NCBI GenBank assembly: GCA_020442475.1 | Contig: JAGRKA010000004.1 | Location: 17,524 to 81,523, forward strand | Reading direction: 5' to 3' | DNA length: 64,000 bases | Source: Alphaproteobacteria bacterium | Lineage (GTDB): Bacteria > Pseudomonadota > Alphaproteobacteria > Micavibrionales > Micavibrionaceae | Shown here: in pieces, positions 25,599 to 35,332 of the stretch | How the letters are laid out: every line of letters begins with the position of its first letter | Position numbering within the stretch: the first letter of the stretch is position 1 | Notes under the pieces: model-generated | What the model was told of the DNA's origin: nothing | The model's input: the letters and a program-made list of their open reading frames with translations, nothing else | The model's database searches: none | Translations under genes and position numbers: made by a program

Positions 25599-27302
25599 AT
25601 GGCCGCACAGAAAAAAAATCAGAAGAAAGATGATAATGCGGAAGGGCTGTATTTCATACCCTTAGGCGGAGCTGAGCAATTTGGCGTAAACCTTAATGTC
25701 TATATAGAGGGAACGCTTTCCGAAGGGCGCAGGCTTGCTGTAGATTGTGGAATCGGTTTTGCTGACGAGCGCTTTCCGGGTATAGATTTGCTTTTGCCGG
25801 ACCCGGCCTTTCTGGAGGCCGCACGGGATCAGCTTGACGGGCTGGTCATTACGCATGCTCACGAGGATCATATCGGCGCTGTCGCGCTTCTCTGGAAGCG
25901 CTTGCGTTGCCCTGTCTATGCAAGTCCCTTTACAGCCGCTGTTTTGGCCAAAAAGCTCGAAGAACAAGGAGAAAGGGATGTTCCAGTCCATGTTGTGGAC
26001 CATACAGATCCGGTTCATATTGGTGCATTTTCAGTTCAGTTTATTCCGGTGGCTCACTCTGTACCGGATACGCGGGCACTCATCATTGAAACAGAGCATG
26101 GCCGAATTGTGCATAGTGGAGACTGGAATCTCGATCCCCACCCTGTAACCGGACAGCCGACTGATCCGGCCCCTTTTAAGGCCGTAGGTGATAGGGGTGT
26201 GCTTGCCTATATCGGTGATTCAACAAATGCAGGCGTATCTGGGCGTTCCGGTTCTGAACGCGCAGTGGCGGAAGGGCTGGAAGCTACGTTTAAGGCTTGC
26301 CGGGGACGCATTGCCGTGACGAGCTTTTCTTCGAATATCGGGCGCGTCATCAGCATTGCAAAAGCGGCGCAGGCTTGTGGTCGTCAGGTCGCGGTGATCG
26401 GGCGTTCTCTGCACAGGATGATTGGCTGCGCCCGTGAATGCGGCTATATGAAGGACGTACCGGACTTCATCTCAGAGGAAGAGGCTGTAAAACGTTCGCC
26501 TGAGGAAATCGTCCTGATTGTTACGGGTTCGCAGGGGGAAGCGCGCGCGGCATTGGCTAAAATCGCGAGGGGGGAGCACCCTTCTGTGACCTTGTCTAAA
26601 GGTGATACGGTTGTTTTCTCTGCTCGCGCCATTCCGGGTAATGAGCGGGATATTAATCATGTGAAAAATAATCTCATGGCCGGGGGCGTACACATTATCA
26701 GCCCCGGCGATACGCCCCATATCATTCACGTTTCAGGCCACCCGTGCCGGGAGGAAATTCTGGAGATGTATCAATGGACCCGCCCGCAGATTGTTGTGCC
26801 GGTTCACGGGGAGCGGGTACAGCTTGAGGCGCAGGCCGCACTTGCGCGAGACTGTCAGATTCAGGATGTCCTTATCCCGGTCAATGGCTCTGTTATCAGG
26901 CTGGCACCGGGAACGCCGGGAATAGTAGATCATGTGGAGACAGGTTTGCTGGCTGTGGAAACAAAACGCGTGATAGAGGCCTCTCATGCGGCGATTGCAG
27001 AGCGCAGGAAGTTACAATATTCCGGAGCCGTGCATATTGCACTGGCCGTTGGAGAGCATGGGCGGATCGTTGGCGATCCAAAACTTGATATGGTTGGTTT
27101 GATCGATACGGATTCTGCCGGTGAAGAGCAGATCAGAGAGGCTCTGCTTAATGAAATTTTTGAGCTTGTTGAGGATATGACCCTTGAAGAGCGCGAGGAT
27201 GAGCATTTTATGGCTGAAACTCTGCGAATTGGTGCCCGGCGTTTTTGTAGCCACACGCTGGGGTTCAAGCCAAAAACGTCTGTTCATATACTAAAAGTGT
27301 AA
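25599..27302 (+). CDS. rnj: Ribonuclease J
   Basis: This 567-residue metallo-beta-lactamase/beta-CASP nuclease has 5'-exonuclease and endonuclease activity in rRNA maturation and mRNA decay. The zinc-binding motif THAHEDHIG has H86, H88, D90 and H91, and a further metal-site HSGDWNLDPHP follows. The beta-CASP region contains ISPGDTPHIIHVSGHP and the C-terminal domain follows. RNase J is typical of alphaproteobacteria and absent from enterobacteria. The start directly follows coaX, so the two are coupled. Confidence 0.96.
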   Translation: MAAQKKNQKKDDNAEGLYFIPLGGAEQFGVNLNVYIEGTLSEGRRLAVDCGIGFADERFPGIDLLLPDPAFLEAARDQLDGLVITHAHEDHIGAVALLWKRLRCPVYASPFTAAVLAKKLEEQGERDVPVHVVDHTDPVHIGAFSVQFIPVAHSVPDTRALIIETEHGRIVHSGDWNLDPHPVTGQPTDPAPFKAVGDRGVLAYIGDSTNAGVSGRSGSERAVAEGLEATFKACRGRIAVTSFSSNIGRVISIAKAAQACGRQVAVIGRSLHRMIGCARECGYMKDVPDFISEEEAVKRSPEEIVLIVTGSQGEARAALAKIARGEHPSVTLSKGDTVVFSARAIPGNERDINHVKNNLMAGGVHIISPGDTPHIIHVSGHPCREEILEMYQWTRPQIVVPVHGERVQLEAQAALARDCQIQDVLIPVNGSVIRLAPGTPGIVDHVETGLLAVETKRVIEASHAAIAERRKLQYSGAVHIALAVGEHGRIVGDPKLDMVGLIDTDSAGEEQIREALLNEIFELVEDMTLEEREDEHFMAETLRIGARRFCSHTLGFKPKTSVHILKV

Positions 27303-27354: not shown

Positions 27355-27603
27355 ATGGGATGGGTTTCCGGAATTGTTGTTTTCTTACTGACATGGTGGC
27401 TGAGTCTGTTTCTGGTATTGCCATGGTCGCTCAAGCGGGATGAGCAGGGCAAGCCGGACGATCCTAAAATGCACCAGAAAGTCATGTGGACGACCGTACT
27501 GGCGGCTTTTTTCTGGCTCTGCATCTATCTGCTTATTCACGCTGAAATCGTAGATCTTCATCAGATGGCAGCCTCTATGCACCGCGAGGATCACGGAGTA
27601 TGA
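27355..27603 (+). CDS. DUF1467 family inner-membrane protein
   Basis: This 82-residue protein has two transmembrane helices and the conserved central motif LVLPWSLKRDEQGKPDDP between them. DUF1467 proteins are small, of unknown function, and commonly found between rnj and proS in alphaproteobacteria, as here. Its last bases overlap the next gene by 4 (ATGA), so the two are translated together. Confidence 0.88.
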   Translation: MGWVSGIVVFLLTWWLSLFLVLPWSLKRDEQGKPDDPKMHQKVMWTTVLAAFFWLCIYLLIHAEIVDLHQMAASMHREDHGV

Positions 27604-28178
27604 AGCAGGGCGTTGCACGGATAGCCCTGGCTGCGTTGACCCTGCAGTTTGCGCTGTTTGTGTTTGCTCCTGCGGCGTTCGCGCAGGAAATCGTGCTTGG
27701 GACACTATGTCAGGATGATATTGATGCTCTGATCGCAAAAGGAGTGGAGTATCAGCCGGGCGTTGATGTTAACGGTAACGCTGTTGCACCGGCTGATCTA
27801 AATCAATCTGTAAAAATTCTGTCATATCCAGTTGAAATTCCAGTTGAAATAAGCTTGATCAAATGGATGAATTTGAATGTAGACCCTGCTCTGCGCCTTG
27901 ACCCGGAAGTGGGGCATTTTGAACTCCAAAAAGATGGTCGGATTACCTATAATGGGCAGGATATCAGCGACCGGGTGCATCTGTGCGAAAAGGGGCATGA
28001 CACGGATACGGCGCTACCAGAGGAACGTCCCAGCGTGCGGACAGAAGACGTTGTGCCCAGAGACACAAAGGAGAGTGGACAGGCTGTTCCTGATCGCATA
28101 AGCTCTCCACCGCCTGCGCCAGAGCTTCCAAAGACGCCAGAGAGTCTTGGAGAGATGATCAAGGGCGAGGCGGAGTGA
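27600..28178 (+). CDS. Exported protein of unknown function
   Basis: This 192-residue protein has a clear signal peptide ending at AFA around residue 28. I recognise no family. The mature part has two cysteines (in GTLCQDDIDAL and HLCEKG) that could form a disulfide, a predicted beta-rich core, and a Pro/Glu-rich tail (SSPPPAPELPKTPESL) suggestive of a flexible periplasmic linker. It overlaps DUF1467 by 4 bases and precedes proS by 43 bases. Confidence 0.75.
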   Translation: MKQGVARIALAALTLQFALFVFAPAAFAQEIVLGTLCQDDIDALIAKGVEYQPGVDVNGNAVAPADLNQSVKILSYPVEIPVEISLIKWMNLNVDPALRLDPEVGHFELQKDGRITYNGQDISDRVHLCEKGHDTDTALPEERPSVRTEDVVPRDTKESGQAVPDRISSPPPAPELPKTPESLGEMIKGEAE

Positions 28179-28221: not shown

Positions 28222-29694
28222 ATGAGTAAGCAACAGAAAACTGCGATTACGCCTACACGGGTGGATAATTTTCCCGAATGGTATCAGCAGGTGATCAAGG
28301 CCGCTGATATGGCAGAAAATGCGCCTGTGCGCGGCTGTATGATTATCAAGCCTTACGGCTATGCCGTTTGGGAGAATATGCAGCGGGTTTTTGATGACCG
28401 TATCAAGGCTGAAGGCGTCCAGAACGCCTATTTTCCCCTTCTGATCCCGCTGGAATTTATTAGCCGTGAGGCGGAGCATGTTGACGGGTTTGCCAAAGAG
28501 TGCGCCGTTGTCACGCATCACCGGCTGGAAAAGGGCGAGAAAGGTCTACAACCGGCAGAAAGCGCAAAGCTTGAGGAGCCGTACGTGATCCGCCCGACAT
28601 CAGAGACGATTATCGGAGATGCAATGTCACGCTGGATTCAATCCTACCGTGATTTGCCGCTTAAACTTAATCAGTGGGCAAATGTAATGCGCTGGGAAAT
28701 GCGCACGCGTATGTTTTTGCGGACCTCTGAATTTTTGTGGCAGGAGGGGCATAACGCCTTTGAAACGGCGGAAGAGGCGCGTGAGGATGCGCTCAAGATG
28801 CTCCGAGTTTATGCGGATTTCGCTGAAAACACGCTTGCTATGCCTGTAATCGTTGGTGAAAAGACGGAAGATGAGCGTTTCCCCGGTGCAGATGCGACTT
28901 ATACGATCGAGGCGATGATGCAGGATGGGAAGGCCCTTCAGGCCGGTACCTCGCACGATCTGGGGCAGAATTTCGCGCGTTCCATGGGCATACGGTTTCA
29001 GGGGCGCGATGGCAGCGAGGCGTACGCCCATACGACCAGTTGGGGGATTTCAACACGCCTGATTGGTGGCATGATTATGACGCATGGCGATGACGATGGG
29101 ATGATTATGCCGCCGAAAGTCGCACCGATTCATGTGGCCATTATCCCGGTTCTGCGCGAAGACTCGGATGCGGCTCAAATTCTTGATTATTGTGAAAGGC
29201 TGAGCTTGCGTCTGAAAGAGCTGGGCTTACGAGTCCAGCTTGATACAAGCGACCGCCGGACGCCGGACAAGATGTGGGATGCTGTGAAGAAGGGCGTACC
29301 GTTGCGCGTGGAAATCGGTGGGCGCGAAGTCGAGGCGGAAAGCCTGACCTGTGTACGCCGTGATCTGGGTCGAGAGTCAAAGGCGAATTACAGCCTTGAA
29401 GACTTTACCGGCAAGGTGCAAATGCTTTTGGATGAGGTGCAGGCTGAATTACTCCGCAGAGCTAAGGCTTTCCGGGATTCCCGGATTAGGGATGTTTCCA
29501 GTCTTGCGGAGGTGAAAGCACTTTATATCGAGGAGAGCGCTGCTCAGGGGGCGCAAAACGGCTTTGCCTGTGCGGACGTGTCTATTTTGAGCGATCCGGG
29601 TTTTGAGGCCCTCTGTAAGGAGTTTTCCCTTACGCCGCGCTGTTTGCCGTTCGAGGATAAGGGCCGCAAGGTCTTGATCGGGAAGGCGTATTAG
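28222..29694 (+). CDS. proS: Prolyl-tRNA synthetase, archaeal/eukaryotic-like type
   Basis: This 490-residue class II synthetase charges tRNA-Pro. Motif 2/3 regions include VIRPTSETIIG, EFLWQEGHNAF and QAGTSHDLGQNFAR. The protein lacks the bacterial editing insertion. It ends with a C-terminal extension finishing in LIGKAY; a terminal tyrosine is the hallmark of the archaeal/eukaryotic-like class. The alphaproteobacterial enzyme at this position is normally the shorter bacterial-derived form without that extension. Gene order (rnj-DUF1467-proS-lolC) is conserved, so replacement in place is inferred. Function is certain; the class assignment is good but made by eye. Confidence 0.95.
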   Translation: MSKQQKTAITPTRVDNFPEWYQQVIKAADMAENAPVRGCMIIKPYGYAVWENMQRVFDDRIKAEGVQNAYFPLLIPLEFISREAEHVDGFAKECAVVTHHRLEKGEKGLQPAESAKLEEPYVIRPTSETIIGDAMSRWIQSYRDLPLKLNQWANVMRWEMRTRMFLRTSEFLWQEGHNAFETAEEAREDALKMLRVYADFAENTLAMPVIVGEKTEDERFPGADATYTIEAMMQDGKALQAGTSHDLGQNFARSMGIRFQGRDGSEAYAHTTSWGISTRLIGGMIMTHGDDDGMIMPPKVAPIHVAIIPVLREDSDAAQILDYCERLSLRLKELGLRVQLDTSDRRTPDKMWDAVKKGVPLRVEIGGREVEAESLTCVRRDLGRESKANYSLEDFTGKVQMLLDEVQAELLRRAKAFRDSRIRDVSSLAEVKALYIEESAAQGAQNGFACADVSILSDPGFEALCKEFSLTPRCLPFEDKGRKVLIGKAY

Positions 29695-29698
29695 AACA

Positions 29699-30940
29699 AT
29701 GTTCTCCCCTTTCGAACGTATGGTCGCATGGCGCTATCTTCGCTCCCGGAAGGCGGAAGGGTTTGTTTCGGTTATCGCCGGCTTCTCTTTTCTGGGGATT
29801 ATGCTGGGCGTGGCGACGCTGATTATTGTTATGAGCGTGATGAACGGTTTTCGGGCGGAGCTGTTCAGCCGGATCTTGGGGCTGAACGGTCATATGAACG
29901 TCTATTCTCTTGAGGGGCCGCTCTATGATTACGATTATTTGAAAAGCCGGATTGATACGCTTGATGGGATTTCCAACGTTACCCCGACCATTGAGGCACA
30001 GGCCTTGATTTCCAGAGGCGGCAGCTCAAACGGCGTGATGGTCCGCGGGATTACGTGGGAGGATTTCACAAACCGCAAAGTGCTACGTGAGTCCATTACA
30101 CAGGGCGATCTGGCTGATTTTTCAGGCAACAAAGTCGCGGTTGGCTCCGTCTTAGCGCAAAAAATGCGCCTTGTGCCCGGTGACAAAATCACATTGACAT
30201 CGCCGCAGGTCAAATCCACGCCGTTCGGCTCTATGCCACGGCAGAGATCATATGAAGTCGCGCTGATTTTTGATGTGGGCATGTATGAATATAATAGCGG
30301 CTTTGTCTTTATGCCGCTGGACACCGCGCAGACTTTTTTCCAGTTTGACGGCGCGGTGAGCTCTCTGGAGATTTTCCTGAAGGAGCCGGACAGGCTAAAC
30401 GATGTACGAGCGGCTGTTTCTATAGCCGTCGAGGGGCAGGCAGGCGTCTATGATTGGCGCGATACGAACCAGAGCTTTTTCAATGCACTTCAGGTCGAGC
30501 GCAACGTGATGTTCCTAATCCTGACCCTGATCATTATCGTGGCGGCCTTTAATATTATTTCGTCCATGATCATGCTGGTAAAGGATAAGGGGCCGGATAT
30601 CGCGATCCTGCGCACTATGGGGGCAACGCGTTCCAATATGATGAAAATTTTTATGCTGACCGGAGCGAGTATCGGCGTTGCCGGTACCGCTGTAGGAGCC
30701 TGCGTCGGAATTGCTTTTGCCCTGAATATCGAAGCGATAAGGCGTTTTCTAGAGGGGCTGACGGGAACGGAGCTGTTTGCCGAAGAGATTTATTTTCTTT
30801 CCCAGCTTCCGGCGGAAATTGATTGGCAAGAGGTCGTGGCCGTCGTGGGTATGGCTCTGTTTTTGTCTATATTGGCGACATTGTACCCGGCATGGCGCGC
30901 TGCCCGCCTCGACCCGGTGGAGGCATTGAGATATGAATAA
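29699..30940 (+). CDS. lolC: Lipoprotein-releasing ABC transporter permease LolC/E
   Basis: This 413-residue inner-membrane protein extracts outer-membrane lipoproteins and passes them to LolA. It has one helix near the N-terminus (FVSVIAGFSFLGIMLGVATL), a large periplasmic MacB-like domain, and three C-terminal helices. The MacB/FtsX-type coupling region KDKGPDIAILRTMGAT follows the second helix. It lies 4 bases after proS and overlaps lolD by 8. Only one permease gene is present, suggesting a homodimeric LolF-type transporter. Confidence 0.94.
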   Translation: MFSPFERMVAWRYLRSRKAEGFVSVIAGFSFLGIMLGVATLIIVMSVMNGFRAELFSRILGLNGHMNVYSLEGPLYDYDYLKSRIDTLDGISNVTPTIEAQALISRGGSSNGVMVRGITWEDFTNRKVLRESITQGDLADFSGNKVAVGSVLAQKMRLVPGDKITLTSPQVKSTPFGSMPRQRSYEVALIFDVGMYEYNSGFVFMPLDTAQTFFQFDGAVSSLEIFLKEPDRLNDVRAAVSIAVEGQAGVYDWRDTNQSFFNALQVERNVMFLILTLIIIVAAFNIISSMIMLVKDKGPDIAILRTMGATRSNMMKIFMLTGASIGVAGTAVGACVGIAFALNIEAIRRFLEGLTGTELFAEEIYFLSQLPAEIDWQEVVAVVGMALFLSILATLYPAWRAARLDPVEALRYE

Positions 30941-31634
30941 TCTTGATCCCCTTGAGGAAGACGTGTTGCTCCGGGTCAGAGGATTAGAGAAAACCTTCGT
31001 GCAAGGCGGGCAAAAGCTCACGATTTTTAAAAATCTGGACCTCAAGATCGAGGCAGGCGAGATCGTTGCACTCGTGGGGCAAAGCGGTTCAGGAAAATCC
31101 ACCTTGCTCCAGCTGGCGGGGCTTTTGGATAAGCCGACCGCCGGGAACATCCGTGTTGGCGGCAAACTAGCGGTGAAGCTGTCCGACCGGGAACGCACGG
31201 CGCTGCGCCGGGATAAGATCGGTTTTGTGTATCAGTTCCATCATCTCTTGCCGGAATTTACCGCACTGGAAAATGTCTCGATGCCGCAAATTATCGCAGG
31301 TGTGAACCGGAGCGAAGCAAGGGATAAGGCGGCAAGCTTGCTGGCATCGCTTGGGTTGGGCAAGCGTTTGTCGCACCGCCCGGCGAAGCTTTCCGGCGGA
31401 GAGCAGCAGCGCGTAGCGATCGCCCGGGCGCTGGCCAATGAGCCGCAATTGCTTCTGGCTGATGAACCGACCGGGAATCTCGATCCGCAAATCTCCGAAG
31501 ACGTATTCGAGCTTCTCCTTGAACAGGTTCGGGAGCGCAATATCGGTGCGCTGGTGGCCACCCATAACATCCAGCTCGCCGAACAAATGGACCGTGTGCT
31601 GGAGCTCAAGGCCGGGAAACTTGTTCCTTTTTGA
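30933..31634 (+). CDS. lolD: Lipoprotein-releasing ABC transporter ATPase
   Basis: This 233-residue ATPase drives the LolC permease. Walker A is GQSGSGKST at 49-57, the signature is LSGGEQQRVAIARAL, and Walker B is LLLADEPTGNLD. The Q loop and the H loop (ATHNIQLA) are also present. The family's Lol-specific YQFHHLLPEFTALENV segment follows Walker A. The gene ends the proS-lolC-lolD unit; a terminator-like hairpin lies 145 bases downstream. Confidence 0.96.
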   Translation: MNNLDPLEEDVLLRVRGLEKTFVQGGQKLTIFKNLDLKIEAGEIVALVGQSGSGKSTLLQLAGLLDKPTAGNIRVGGKLAVKLSDRERTALRRDKIGFVYQFHHLLPEFTALENVSMPQIIAGVNRSEARDKAASLLASLGLGKRLSHRPAKLSGGEQQRVAIARALANEPQLLLADEPTGNLDPQISEDVFELLLEQVRERNIGALVATHNIQLAEQMDRVLELKAGKLVPF

Positions 31635-31846: not shown

Positions 31847-31863
31847 ATGCTGGCCGTTTCGAA

Positions 31864-31892
31864 AGATCCCTCGGCTATGCTTGGGATGACAT
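31864..31892. repeat. Second copy (single arm) of the 15451-15532 palindromic repeat
   Basis: The sequence begins AGATCCCTCG and ends GGGATGACAT. It aligns without gaps over 29 bases to the right arm at 15505-15533, with 21 identical positions by my count. Only one arm is present here, immediately upstream of dnaE, so it may be a decayed half-element. Confidence 0.55.
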
Positions 31893-31921
31893 GGGAGAGG
31901 TATACTGCTACTCTCCGATTC

Positions 31922-34900
31922 ATGACACAAAATTTCATCCACCTCCATGTGCATTCCGCCTATTCGCTGGCGGAAGGGGCGATCAAGGTCAAGGATCTTG
32001 TGAAATTGTGCGTGGATCGCGCCATGCCCGCTGTGGCGGTGACGGATACGAATAACCTCTTTGGTGCGATGGAGTTTGCCATTGAGGCGGCAAAAAACGG
32101 TGTGCAGCCGATTATTGGCGTGCAGGTCGATGTCGGGGAGGCACGGGACCAGCTTGTGCTGCTGGTTCAAAACGAAGAAGGTTTCCGGAATCTCTCGAAG
32201 CTGCTCAGCGATGCCTATCTGGAGGGAGAGCCGCATATGCCGGTTCATCTGGATATGGAGGTGCTGGCCGGGCATGCGGAGGGGTTGATTTGTCTCACCG
32301 GCGGTTCAAAGGGGCCAGTGAACCGCTTTTTAGTCCATAATCAGGCTGATGCGGCGGAGCAGGCACTTTTTAAGCTTAAGGGGATTTTTGGAGACCGTCT
32401 TTATGTCGAGCTTCAGCGGCATGGATGGCCGGATGAAGACCGGGTGGAGGGCGTATTGGTTGATCTGGCCTACGCGCAGGATGTCCCGCTGGTGGCCACG
32501 AATGATTGCTATTTTGCAGCTCAAAAATCCTATGAGGCGCATGATGCACTGCTCTGTATCGCTGAAGGGCGCTATATCACCGAAGAGGATCGCCGTAAGG
32601 TCACAAAGGAGCATTACTTCAAAACGGCGCGGGAAATGGAGGCACTCTTTGAGGATTTGCCGGAAGCTATTCTCAATACGGAAGTTATTGCTCGGCGCTG
32701 TTCCTATCTTTTGACCCCGATTGCACCGATTTTGCCTGCCTTTGATACGGAAGGCGGGCGCAGCGAGTTCGAGGAACTGAAGGCGCAGGCGGAGGAGGGG
32801 TTGGAATGGCGGCTGGAGAATTTCGTCTCCGAGGGCGCAGACCGCAAGACCTATGAAGAGCGCATGGTGTATGAACTCGGCATTATTAAGGATATGGGTT
32901 TCCCCGGTTATTTCCTGATCGTTTCCGATTTTATCAAATGGGCCAAGGATCACGATATTCCGGTCGGGCCGGGCCGGGGGTCCGGCGCAGGCTCGGTCGT
33001 GGCCTGGGCGCTCAAAATCACAGACCTTGATCCGCTGGAACTCGGTTTGCTGTTTGAACGGTTTTTGAACCCGGAACGGGTCTCTATGCCGGACTTTGAT
33101 ATCGATTTCTGTCAGGAGCGCCGTGACGAGGTTATCCGGTACGTACAGGGCAAATATGGCCGTGACCGTGTGGCGCAGATCATCACCTTCGGAAAGCTTC
33201 AGGCGCGGGCTGTTGTCCGCGATGTCGGGCGGGTGCTCCAGATGTCCTACGGGCAGGTGGACCGGATCGCGAAGCTCATCCCGAACAATCCGGCGAACCC
33301 GGTTACGTTGGAGGAGGCACTGGCGCAGGATGCGGATTTGCGGGCCGAGCGCGACAAAGACGAGACGCAGAAGAAACTCATTAACATCGCTCTGCAACTG
33401 GAGGGGCTGTACCGTCATGCCTCAACCCATGCCGCCGGGGTCGTGATCGGTGACAGAAGCCTGCATGAGCTTGTGCCGCTCTATCGTGATCCGAAATCAG
33501 ATATGCCTGTAACGCAGTTCAACATGAAATATGTCGAACAGGCGGGGCTTGTCAAATTTGACTTCCTTGGTTTGAAAACCATGACGGTCGTGCAAAAAAC
33601 GCTGGATATGATTGCCGCAGGCGGTACGGAAATCGACAGCCTCCAAATTCCGCTGGATGACCCGAAAGCGTATGAGCTTATGGCCTCCGGGAACACAGTG
33701 GGGGTTTTCCAGTTGGAAAGTGCGGGCATGCGGGACACGCTACGCAAGGTCAAGCCGAACCGCTTTGAGGATATTATCGCTCTTGTGTCGCTCTACCGTC
33801 CGGGGCCGATGGACAATATCCCGCGCTATATTGCCGTTAAGGAGGAGCGCGAGGACGCCGATTATATGCACCCGATCCTCAAGCCGCTCCTTGAGGACAC
33901 GTACGGGATCATGATCTATCAGGAGCAGGTCATGCAGGCCGCACAGGAGCTTGCCGGCTATACGCTCGGCGGCGCAGATTTGCTCCGGCGCGCGATGGGA
34001 AAAAAAATCAAGGAGGAGATGGATGCACAGCGCCAGATGTTCATCGACGGCGCAAAAAAGCATCATAACGTTCCAGAGGACAAGGCCGAGGATATTTTTG
34101 AGCAGATCAACAAATTCGCGGGCTATGGCTTCAACAAGTCCCACGCGGCGGCTTATGCGTTGATCGCCTACTGGACGGCATGGTTAAAGGCGAATTACCC
34201 GCTTGAGTTTATGGCCGCGTCAATGACCCTTGATCTGGGCAACACGGATAAATTAAGCATCTTCAAGCAAGATCTTGACCGGATGGGGATTGCGCTACGC
34301 TCGCCGGATGTGAATAAATCCGCACCTGATTTTACTGTAGAAGACGGACAGGCTGTTCGCTACGCGCTTGCCGCCCTCAAGGGGGTTGGAGAGGCCGCGA
34401 TGGAAAGTCTTGTTGCTGAGCGTACGGCGGCTGGTCCTTTTGCCTCTCTTGATGAGTTTGCCCGGCGGATCGACCCGAAAGCCATGAATAAGCGCCAGTT
34501 CGAGCAGCTATCCTACGCCGGAGCCTTCGACTCGCTCAATGATAACCGGGCGCAGGTTGCGGCTTCGGCTGAATTGATCTTACGCCACGCGCATGCTCTA
34601 GCTGAGGAGCGTGCAGCCGGGCAGGTCAGTTTATTCGGCGGCGGCGATAACGGAGACGGCGACGGGCTGGGCTTGCCGGATATGCCGAAGATTACACCGT
34701 GGACTCCGTTGGAGAAGCTGGGAAAAGAGTTCAGCGCTGTGGGGTTCTATCTTTCTGCGCACCCGCTGGATAGCCGCGAAAAACAGTTTGAAAATCTTAG
34801 AATATCCTCGTTGGCGCAGGTTGAGGCGGCGCTGGCCGATATTCCTGCCGCGAGGTTTCAAATGGCAGGTATTTTGTTGAAAAAGCAGGAAAAAATTTCA

Positions 34901-35332
34901 CAAAAAGGGAATAAATACGCCTTTTTACAGCTCTCAGACCCGACAGGTATTTTTGAAGTGACCTTGTTTTCAGAGCTTCTTCATAGTAGCCGGGAGCATC
35001 TGGAGCCGGGGCAGGCCTTGCTGCTAGGGATTGATGCCGAGCAAAGGGAGGACCAGATCCGCTATACCTGCACCCGGATCGACCCGCTCGATGCGGCGCT
35101 CGAGGGGAAAATCAGGGAGATCGACATCCATATGTCCGGTGCGCAGGCCGCAGGCAAGCTAAAAGAGCTGATGACGCAAGAGGGGCAGGGACACTCAAGG
35201 ATTAATCTGGTTGTTAAAATCGAGGATGGTCGCATGGTCAAGCTCCGTCTCGGCGGGCGCTGGAGTCTGGGCGCGGACTCCCGCGATCTTATTCGCGCTG
35301 AAGAGGGCGTTGATTTTATCGCGGAAGGCTGA
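31922..35332 (+). CDS. dnaE: DNA polymerase III subunit alpha
   Basis: This 1136-residue replicative polymerase has an N-terminal PHP domain (FIHLHVHSAYSLAEGA), a palm domain with the catalytic aspartates in MPDFDIDFCQERR, a helix-hairpin-helix region, and an OB-fold near the C-terminus (FQMAGILLKKQEKISQKG). The frame opens at 31847, but the first 25 codons are repeat sequence. The ATG at 31922 gives the standard TQNFIHLHVHSAYS beginning, so I use it. No strong ribosome-binding site is seen. The gene stands between two structured intergenic regions and is probably its own transcription unit. Confidence 0.97.
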   Translation: MTQNFIHLHVHSAYSLAEGAIKVKDLVKLCVDRAMPAVAVTDTNNLFGAMEFAIEAAKNGVQPIIGVQVDVGEARDQLVLLVQNEEGFRNLSKLLSDAYLEGEPHMPVHLDMEVLAGHAEGLICLTGGSKGPVNRFLVHNQADAAEQALFKLKGIFGDRLYVELQRHGWPDEDRVEGVLVDLAYAQDVPLVATNDCYFAAQKSYEAHDALLCIAEGRYITEEDRRKVTKEHYFKTAREMEALFEDLPEAILNTEVIARRCSYLLTPIAPILPAFDTEGGRSEFEELKAQAEEGLEWRLENFVSEGADRKTYEERMVYELGIIKDMGFPGYFLIVSDFIKWAKDHDIPVGPGRGSGAGSVVAWALKITDLDPLELGLLFERFLNPERVSMPDFDIDFCQERRDEVIRYVQGKYGRDRVAQIITFGKLQARAVVRDVGRVLQMSYGQVDRIAKLIPNNPANPVTLEEALAQDADLRAERDKDETQKKLINIALQLEGLYRHASTHAAGVVIGDRSLHELVPLYRDPKSDMPVTQFNMKYVEQAGLVKFDFLGLKTMTVVQKTLDMIAAGGTEIDSLQIPLDDPKAYELMASGNTVGVFQLESAGMRDTLRKVKPNRFEDIIALVSLYRPGPMDNIPRYIAVKEEREDADYMHPILKPLLEDTYGIMIYQEQVMQAAQELAGYTLGGADLLRRAMGKKIKEEMDAQRQMFIDGAKKHHNVPEDKAEDIFEQINKFAGYGFNKSHAAAYALIAYWTAWLKANYPLEFMAASMTLDLGNTDKLSIFKQDLDRMGIALRSPDVNKSAPDFTVEDGQAVRYALAALKGVGEAAMESLVAERTAAGPFASLDEFARRIDPKAMNKRQFEQLSYAGAFDSLNDNRAQVAASAELILRHAHALAEERAAGQVSLFGGGDNGDGDGLGLPDMPKITPWTPLEKLGKEFSAVGFYLSAHPLDSREKQFENLRISSLAQVEAALADIPAARFQMAGILLKKQEKISQKGNKYAFLQLSDPTGIFEVTLFSELLHSSREHLEPGQALLLGIDAEQREDQIRYTCTRIDPLDAALEGKIREIDIHMSGAQAAGKLKELMTQEGQGHSRINLVVKIEDGRMVKLRLGGRWSLGADSRDLIRAEEGVDFIAEG

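Follow-up and report, generated by a model that had tools for sequence, protein, structure and literature searches.

Introduction

Among aminoacyl-tRNA synthetases, two divergent forms of one enzyme that are patchily distributed within a taxon, normally with one form per genome, are called homeoalleles, reportedly a term of Andam and Gogarten. Described cases comprise TyrRS in Bacteria and ThrRS and SerRS in Archaea, and the TyrRS forms share their syntenic context (PMC3191353). Prolyl-tRNA synthetase (ProRS) occurs in two classes, an archaeal/eukaryotic type (class I, 'E-type') and a bacterial type (class II). An E-type ProRS is present in about 22% of bacteria, and the E-type enzymes of Thermus thermophilus and B. 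thuringiensis specifically charge P-type tRNA-Pro, i.e., tRNA-Pro with G72 and A73; the motif 2 loop distinguishes bacterial enzymes (RPR) from eukaryotic ones (KHPQ) (PMC12152171). The class II ProRS of Alphaproteobacteria carries a truncated mini-INS in place of the full editing insertion (PMC3973320).

The locus described here lies in a 64-kb stretch of DNA (hereafter the window, i.e., the whole stretch that was analyzed) from a member of the Micavibrionaceae, order Micavibrionales. It combines a known enzyme type with a known kind of exchange, that of synthetase homeoalleles, and is a new and well-resolved case of it. It differs from the TyrRS, ThrRS, and SerRS cases (PMC3191353) in that the enzyme is ProRS, with an archaeal/eukaryotic and a bacterial type as its two forms, and in that the discordance of the gene with both of its flanks is seen in one genome. 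The literature searched yielded no paper that deals with ProRS homeoalleles or with the class I ProRS of this order.

Results

The proS gene of the window (28222..29694, + strand) is an intact open reading frame with an ATG start that encodes a class I prolyl-tRNA synthetase of 490 aa. The protein scores 479.8 bits against the NCBIfam model TIGR00408 (proS_fam_I), above the cut-off of 437, and remains far below the cut-offs of the bacterial-type models (93-105 bits with cut-offs of 307-558), among them TIGR00409 (94.3 bits, cut-off 306.7) and NF008979 (105.4 bits, cut-off 550). Its top solved relative is the T. thermophilus ProRS (1h4q, E 2.8e-134, residues 7-480), followed in the sequence search by ProRS of apicomplexans and human; with 2i4l, the class II enzyme from Alphaproteobacteria, the match covers residues 214-392 only. 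In a tree with both ProRS classes (375 shared columns) the window ProRS groups with class I at 100/100, the opposite of a placement within the alphaproteobacterial clade, and the archaeal/eukaryotic-like class proposed by the first-pass annotation is thereby confirmed. The structures closest to the AlphaFold model are all E-type ProRS (Z 36-40); the model has a mean pLDDT of 77, with a weak catalytic centre and values mostly above 90 from residue ~300 on. The missing editing insertion, also put forward at first as a class mark, is indeed absent between motifs 2 and 3, but it is not diagnostic: native alphaproteobacterial class II ProRS of ~437 aa have only a truncated mini-INS themselves, and INS absence is therefore no class evidence in Alphaproteobacteria.

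The window ProRS shares with the Thermus enzyme the fold, an alignment over the full length, the lack of INS, a C-terminal extension ending in Tyr, the R-T-R motif 2 loop, and a bacterial-type G72/A73 tRNA-Pro. With the alphaproteobacterial class II enzymes (2i4l, NF008979) it has the reaction, the tRNAs, and the chromosomal slot in common. The latter, however, are without the C-terminal extension, have a 437-aa architecture, are only ~22-25% identical to the window ProRS, and are split from it at 100/100 in the tree.

The C-terminal extension of class I (approximately residues 401-489; 29422..29688, + strand; identified in alignment A1 and modelled mostly at pLDDT >90) is followed by the terminal Tyr490 (29689..29691, + strand), and the protein ends in ...KAY-COOH. 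Tyr490 is invariant in alignment A1 and conserved across class I: of 146 class I rows, 143 end in Tyr, and the remainder includes rows cut by contig ends. The extension with terminal tyrosine that had been named as a class I mark is thus present. The version found in this order, though, is without the Cys knuckle (CxxTG/CxxC), which occurs in 0/43 rows of the order versus 95/103 other class I rows. Thermus ProRS keeps this second Cys pair (CxxC/CxxTG) near the C-terminus, whereas the window ProRS and its order have lost it, so that a four-Cys zinc-type site as in Thermus cannot form. Since only 16 of the 103 other class I rows show the four-Cys zinc-type pattern, the missing site is compatible with membership in proS_fam_I. 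The C-terminal domain of the order's class I is an eroded version of that of the family, with the zinc knuckle lost. The motif 2 loop RWEMRTRMFLRTSEF (residues 157-171; 28690..28734, + strand) reads R-T-R in the alignment, and all class I rows with a readable loop, including the window, have R-T-R or R-P-R. By the KHPQ/RPR distinction of PMC12152171, the loop of the window ProRS matches the bacterial enzymes and not the eukaryotic KHPQ.

A check for a second proS, which the first-pass annotation had called for, found none of either class in the 131-contig assembly of the window's genome. Other matches in the proS search were weak and partial (contig C48, a 667-aa frame of ThrRS size; contig C74, a 533-aa frame), and the proS of the window is the only prolyl-tRNA synthetase detected in this cell. 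Two tRNA-Pro genes (GGG and CGG) were recovered in tandem on contig C54, both with C1:G72 and A73; a TGG copy was not found in the 131 contigs. The same C1:G72 and A73 were read from the recovered tRNA-Pro genes of 55 of the 58 genomes searched from the window's family and order, whether these encode class I or class II, with the exception of one copy in G025, the 5' end of which is masked. The search pattern left position 73 free and allowed either G or C at both position 1 and position 72, so that G1:C72 or other discriminators would have shown up. None of these 55/58 genomes showed the archaeal/eukaryotic tRNA-Pro identity, in which C72 replaces G72 and, in eukaryotes, C73 replaces A73. Constancy of C1:G72/A73 under either enzyme means that the tRNA has not followed the enzyme, and the expectation that a class I ProRS should alter tRNA-Pro recognition found no sign in its favour at positions 1, 72, and 73. 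The unchanged tRNA-Pro agrees with the published bacterial E-type enzymes that charge bacterial-type tRNA-Pro.

Of the 58 genomes, 48 have a gene for a free-standing INS-family protein (PF04073), among them that of the window (G000) and all five class II genomes described below. Three of these proteins were compared with the YbaK equivalog model and reached 23-28 bits at a cut-off of 153, which rules out this identity for the three. These three may be ProXp-ala. The tRNA-Pro could stay constant additionally because ProXp-ala of C. crescentus reads C1:G72 and A73 (PMC3973320).

The gene order around proS in the window is rnj - DUF1467 - orf192 - proS - lolC - lolD - dnaE, all on the + strand. 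The upstream slot marker rnj (25599..27302; RNase J; PF22505, PF17770), which is kept beside proS in the order and in other Alphaproteobacteria, is followed by a gene for an 82-aa DUF1467 protein (27355..27603; PF07330, 59.9 bits) and by orf192 (27600..28178), which encodes a predicted exported protein of 192 aa without Pfam match and lies directly upstream of proS in the order. Downstream are the genes for a lolC-like lipoprotein-release permease (29699..30940; PF12704, PF02687), the slot marker on this side and likewise kept beside proS, a lolD-like ABC ATPase (30933..31634; PF00005), and the DNA polymerase III alpha subunit DnaE (31847..35332; PF07733, PF17657). All neighbours named in the first-pass annotation were thus located in their usual order, that of the standard alphaproteobacterial proS slot. 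The orf192 product has a proline-rich tail, and its gene is retained just upstream of proS across most of the order, whichever ProRS class is encoded.

In other alphaproteobacterial families, 19 of 20 loci have class II proS next to lolC, with rnj frequently preceding the pair and lolD and dnaE following it; this arrangement identifies class II as the ancestral occupant of the slot and class I as the newcomer. Among the 34 class I genomes of the order that were examined, 33, the window included, have class I flanked by slot neighbours on one or both sides, and class II occupies the identical slot in all five class II genomes (5/5). The exception among the 34 is G027 (loci L234 and L337), in which class I is located outside the slot and lolC elsewhere; the class I of G027 has a long branch and a position that varies among trees. 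The slot is empty in G012 (L338:1657-1721), with lolC directly after rnj, and the assembly of this genome, fragmented although 96% complete, yielded no proS of class I or class II. Remnants of the other ProRS class were detected by tblastn beside none of the slot genes at 41 loci; the large proS-lolC gaps of some genomes are thus not recognisable proS debris.

Class I was found in 50 of the 58 genomes (45 above the cut-off and five partial or just below it) and canonical class II in five (G003, G017, G023, G026, and G030; 719-741 bits), all of which belong to four separate lineages of the window's family. In three genomes, all of them fragmented assemblies, proS of neither class was found, and none of the 58 has canonical forms of both classes. 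The sister families f2 to f7 have class I in every sampled genome in which a canonical proS was found. Across the class, 38 of 288 alphaproteobacterial genomes had class I; for class II the count was 122 of 143. Sphingomonadales and further Alphaproteobacteria, members of the same bacterial class, have class I ProRS of a separate class I clade that keeps the Cys knuckle, and the Sphingomonadales loci that were read have class I outside the rnj-lolC slot, unlike the window's order. Two genomes of family f5, G051 (L042:5788-7062) and G054 (L043:16-1353), encode a second, divergent class II-like ProRS besides the class I enzyme of the slot. This second ProRS scores 434 bits with TIGR00409 and shares ~40% identity with the class II enzyme of the family; it is encoded outside the slot between a TerB-like gene and a TerC gene and may be a paralogue with another role.

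The distribution of the two classes is a phylogenetic patchwork. Class II is found in four lineages on the rnj+lolC+lolD+dnaE tree, and four changes are needed again on the independent rpoB+rpoC tree and likewise on a quick version of a tree of all six genes; strongly supported branches alone force at least three to four class changes. All five class II enzymes fall into a single clade (100/99) on its own stem, and their internal order, ((G003,G017),(G023,(G026,G030))), is close to the species order. In the class I tree many nodes within family f1 are poorly resolved. G035 groups with G008, G026, and G030 by rpoBC, lolC, and rnj (support of 99 for lolC and 95 for rnj), but its class I proS is sister to that of G007 (100/98). 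Constraining G008 and G035 together is rejected for class I proS (p-AU 0.0002), and constraining G035 with G007/G005 is rejected for lolC (p 5e-5) and rnj (p 0.008). The exchange in G035 thus affected proS but not its flanks rnj and lolC, for both of which co-transfer with proS is ruled out; orf192 is too divergent to show whether it moved with proS. Furthermore, the class I ProRS of G043, a member of family f7, is nested inside family f1 (100/100). Flanking proteins are only ~60-80% identical between genera, which is why no recombination junctions are visible, and the class I gene of G027 outside the slot indicates that slot exchange is not the sole route.

The order's class I groups with relatives of Ca. 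Enterousia and with G176. A single origin of this class I and that of other Alphaproteobacteria is not rejected (p-AU 0.38), and the branching among the class I enzymes of the order, of PVC bacteria, of desulfobacteria, and of other Alphaproteobacteria is without resolution. A class I proS with 54% identity over 90% of the query is present on a 665-kb plasmid of Rhizobium leguminosarum (CP050563.1, 12475-13821). Plasmid-borne class I proS is a possible vehicle of transfer into Alphaproteobacteria.

Discussion

We consider it highly probable that the class I ProRS of the window serves an unchanged bacterial tRNA-Pro and that classes I and II are homeoalleles swapped at one slot, with class I spread by horizontal gene transfer. 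The window ProRS would activate proline with ATP and charge ordinary bacterial tRNA-Pro, i.e., do the same job as class II elsewhere. Both classes would serve tRNAs with C1:G72 and A73, and mischarged Ala-tRNA-Pro would be cleared in trans by the free-standing INS-family protein. The same tRNAs being served and Ala-tRNA-Pro being clearable in trans, the two classes would be mutually replaceable and probably equivalent in function in these organisms; class II would become dispensable once a cell holds class I, and vice versa. Early in the order, class I would have entered the ancestral proS slot. Horizontal transfer would later have carried it from one lineage to another, in place of the gene that lies between orf192 and lolC and with neither rnj nor lolC moving along; the route would be transfer between relatives, most simply by recombination via the conserved flanking genes, which would keep the operon-like position. 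A monophyletic class II lineage would have persisted in, or been passed around, four lineages of one family. The first-pass annotation had proposed replacement of the native gene in place by a xenologue. The replacement at the slot stands, as 19 of the 20 loci from other Alphaproteobacteria have class II where the window has class I; it is, however, not an event of a single genome but old, order-wide, and reversible.

Several other explanations of the locus were weighed. That the window ProRS is a divergent native class II enzyme merely resembling the archaeal type could appeal to the INS that native alphaproteobacterial enzymes also miss, but it is hardly conceivable in view of 479.8 versus 93-105 bits, the 100/100 grouping with class I, the class I C-terminal extension, and structural best matches that are all E-type. 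Equally negligible is a binning or assembly artefact, in which class I would have reached the slot on a foreign contig or in a chimaera: the genome assembly is in 131 contigs, yet the gene sits within a 64-kb stretch among order-typical neighbours, and the arrangement repeats in 33 of 34 independently assembled genomes of the order, single-contig assemblies among them.

The history of the slot leaves more room for alternatives. In a rather doubtful scenario the ancestor of the order had both classes, perhaps as tandem genes at the slot, and one or the other disappeared from each lineage, with no later transfer. A single class II clade with an internal order near the species tree would agree with this, as would G051 and G054 with their class II-like gene besides class I at the slot; this second gene, however, encodes a divergent class II-like form distinct from the class II of the family, the two classes were not seen together at the slot in any genome of the order, and the search beside the slot genes turned up no remnants of the other class. 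Moreover, the well-supported class I transfers between lineages (G035, G043) make loss alone insufficient. Class I might instead have been original in the order, with class II regained four times from other Alphaproteobacteria, since all f2 to f7 genomes with a canonical proS have class I and parsimony with a class I root demands class II gains. Different donors would then be expected, and the single class II clade (100/99) on its own stem renders this unlikely; a single gain of class II that then spread through the family would be compatible with it. The five class II taxa do not fix the depth and order of events, and class II could have been retained rather than regained. Exchange of homeoalleles at one slot, to which we return as the preferred explanation, might in addition be driven by selection, the slot being recurrently contested: ORF-for-ORF swaps would occur above drift, class-specific inhibitors or predator/prey toxins would select for the other class, and the invariant tRNA-Pro would make swaps nearly free. 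We regard this extension as improbable and put it forward as speculation.

As in homeoalleles, the two ProRS forms are divergent, patchily distributed in the taxon, and normally present as one per genome (50 versus 5 of 58), with their function equated by family; both forms occupy the same syntenic position, and the proS tree of G035 conflicts with the species and with the flanks. The order thus offers a natural experiment on the limits to the exchange of essential translation enzymes, in which the same locus, in close hosts with the same tRNAs, holds either of two very distant ProRS classes and has switched several times. Co-evolution of the tRNA is not required when the synthetase class changes, and ProRS class joins the synthetase characters that cannot safely be used to trace descent. 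The exchange also bears on class-selective inhibitors, as halofuginone-type compounds bind E-type enzymes, structures of which were among the structural matches.
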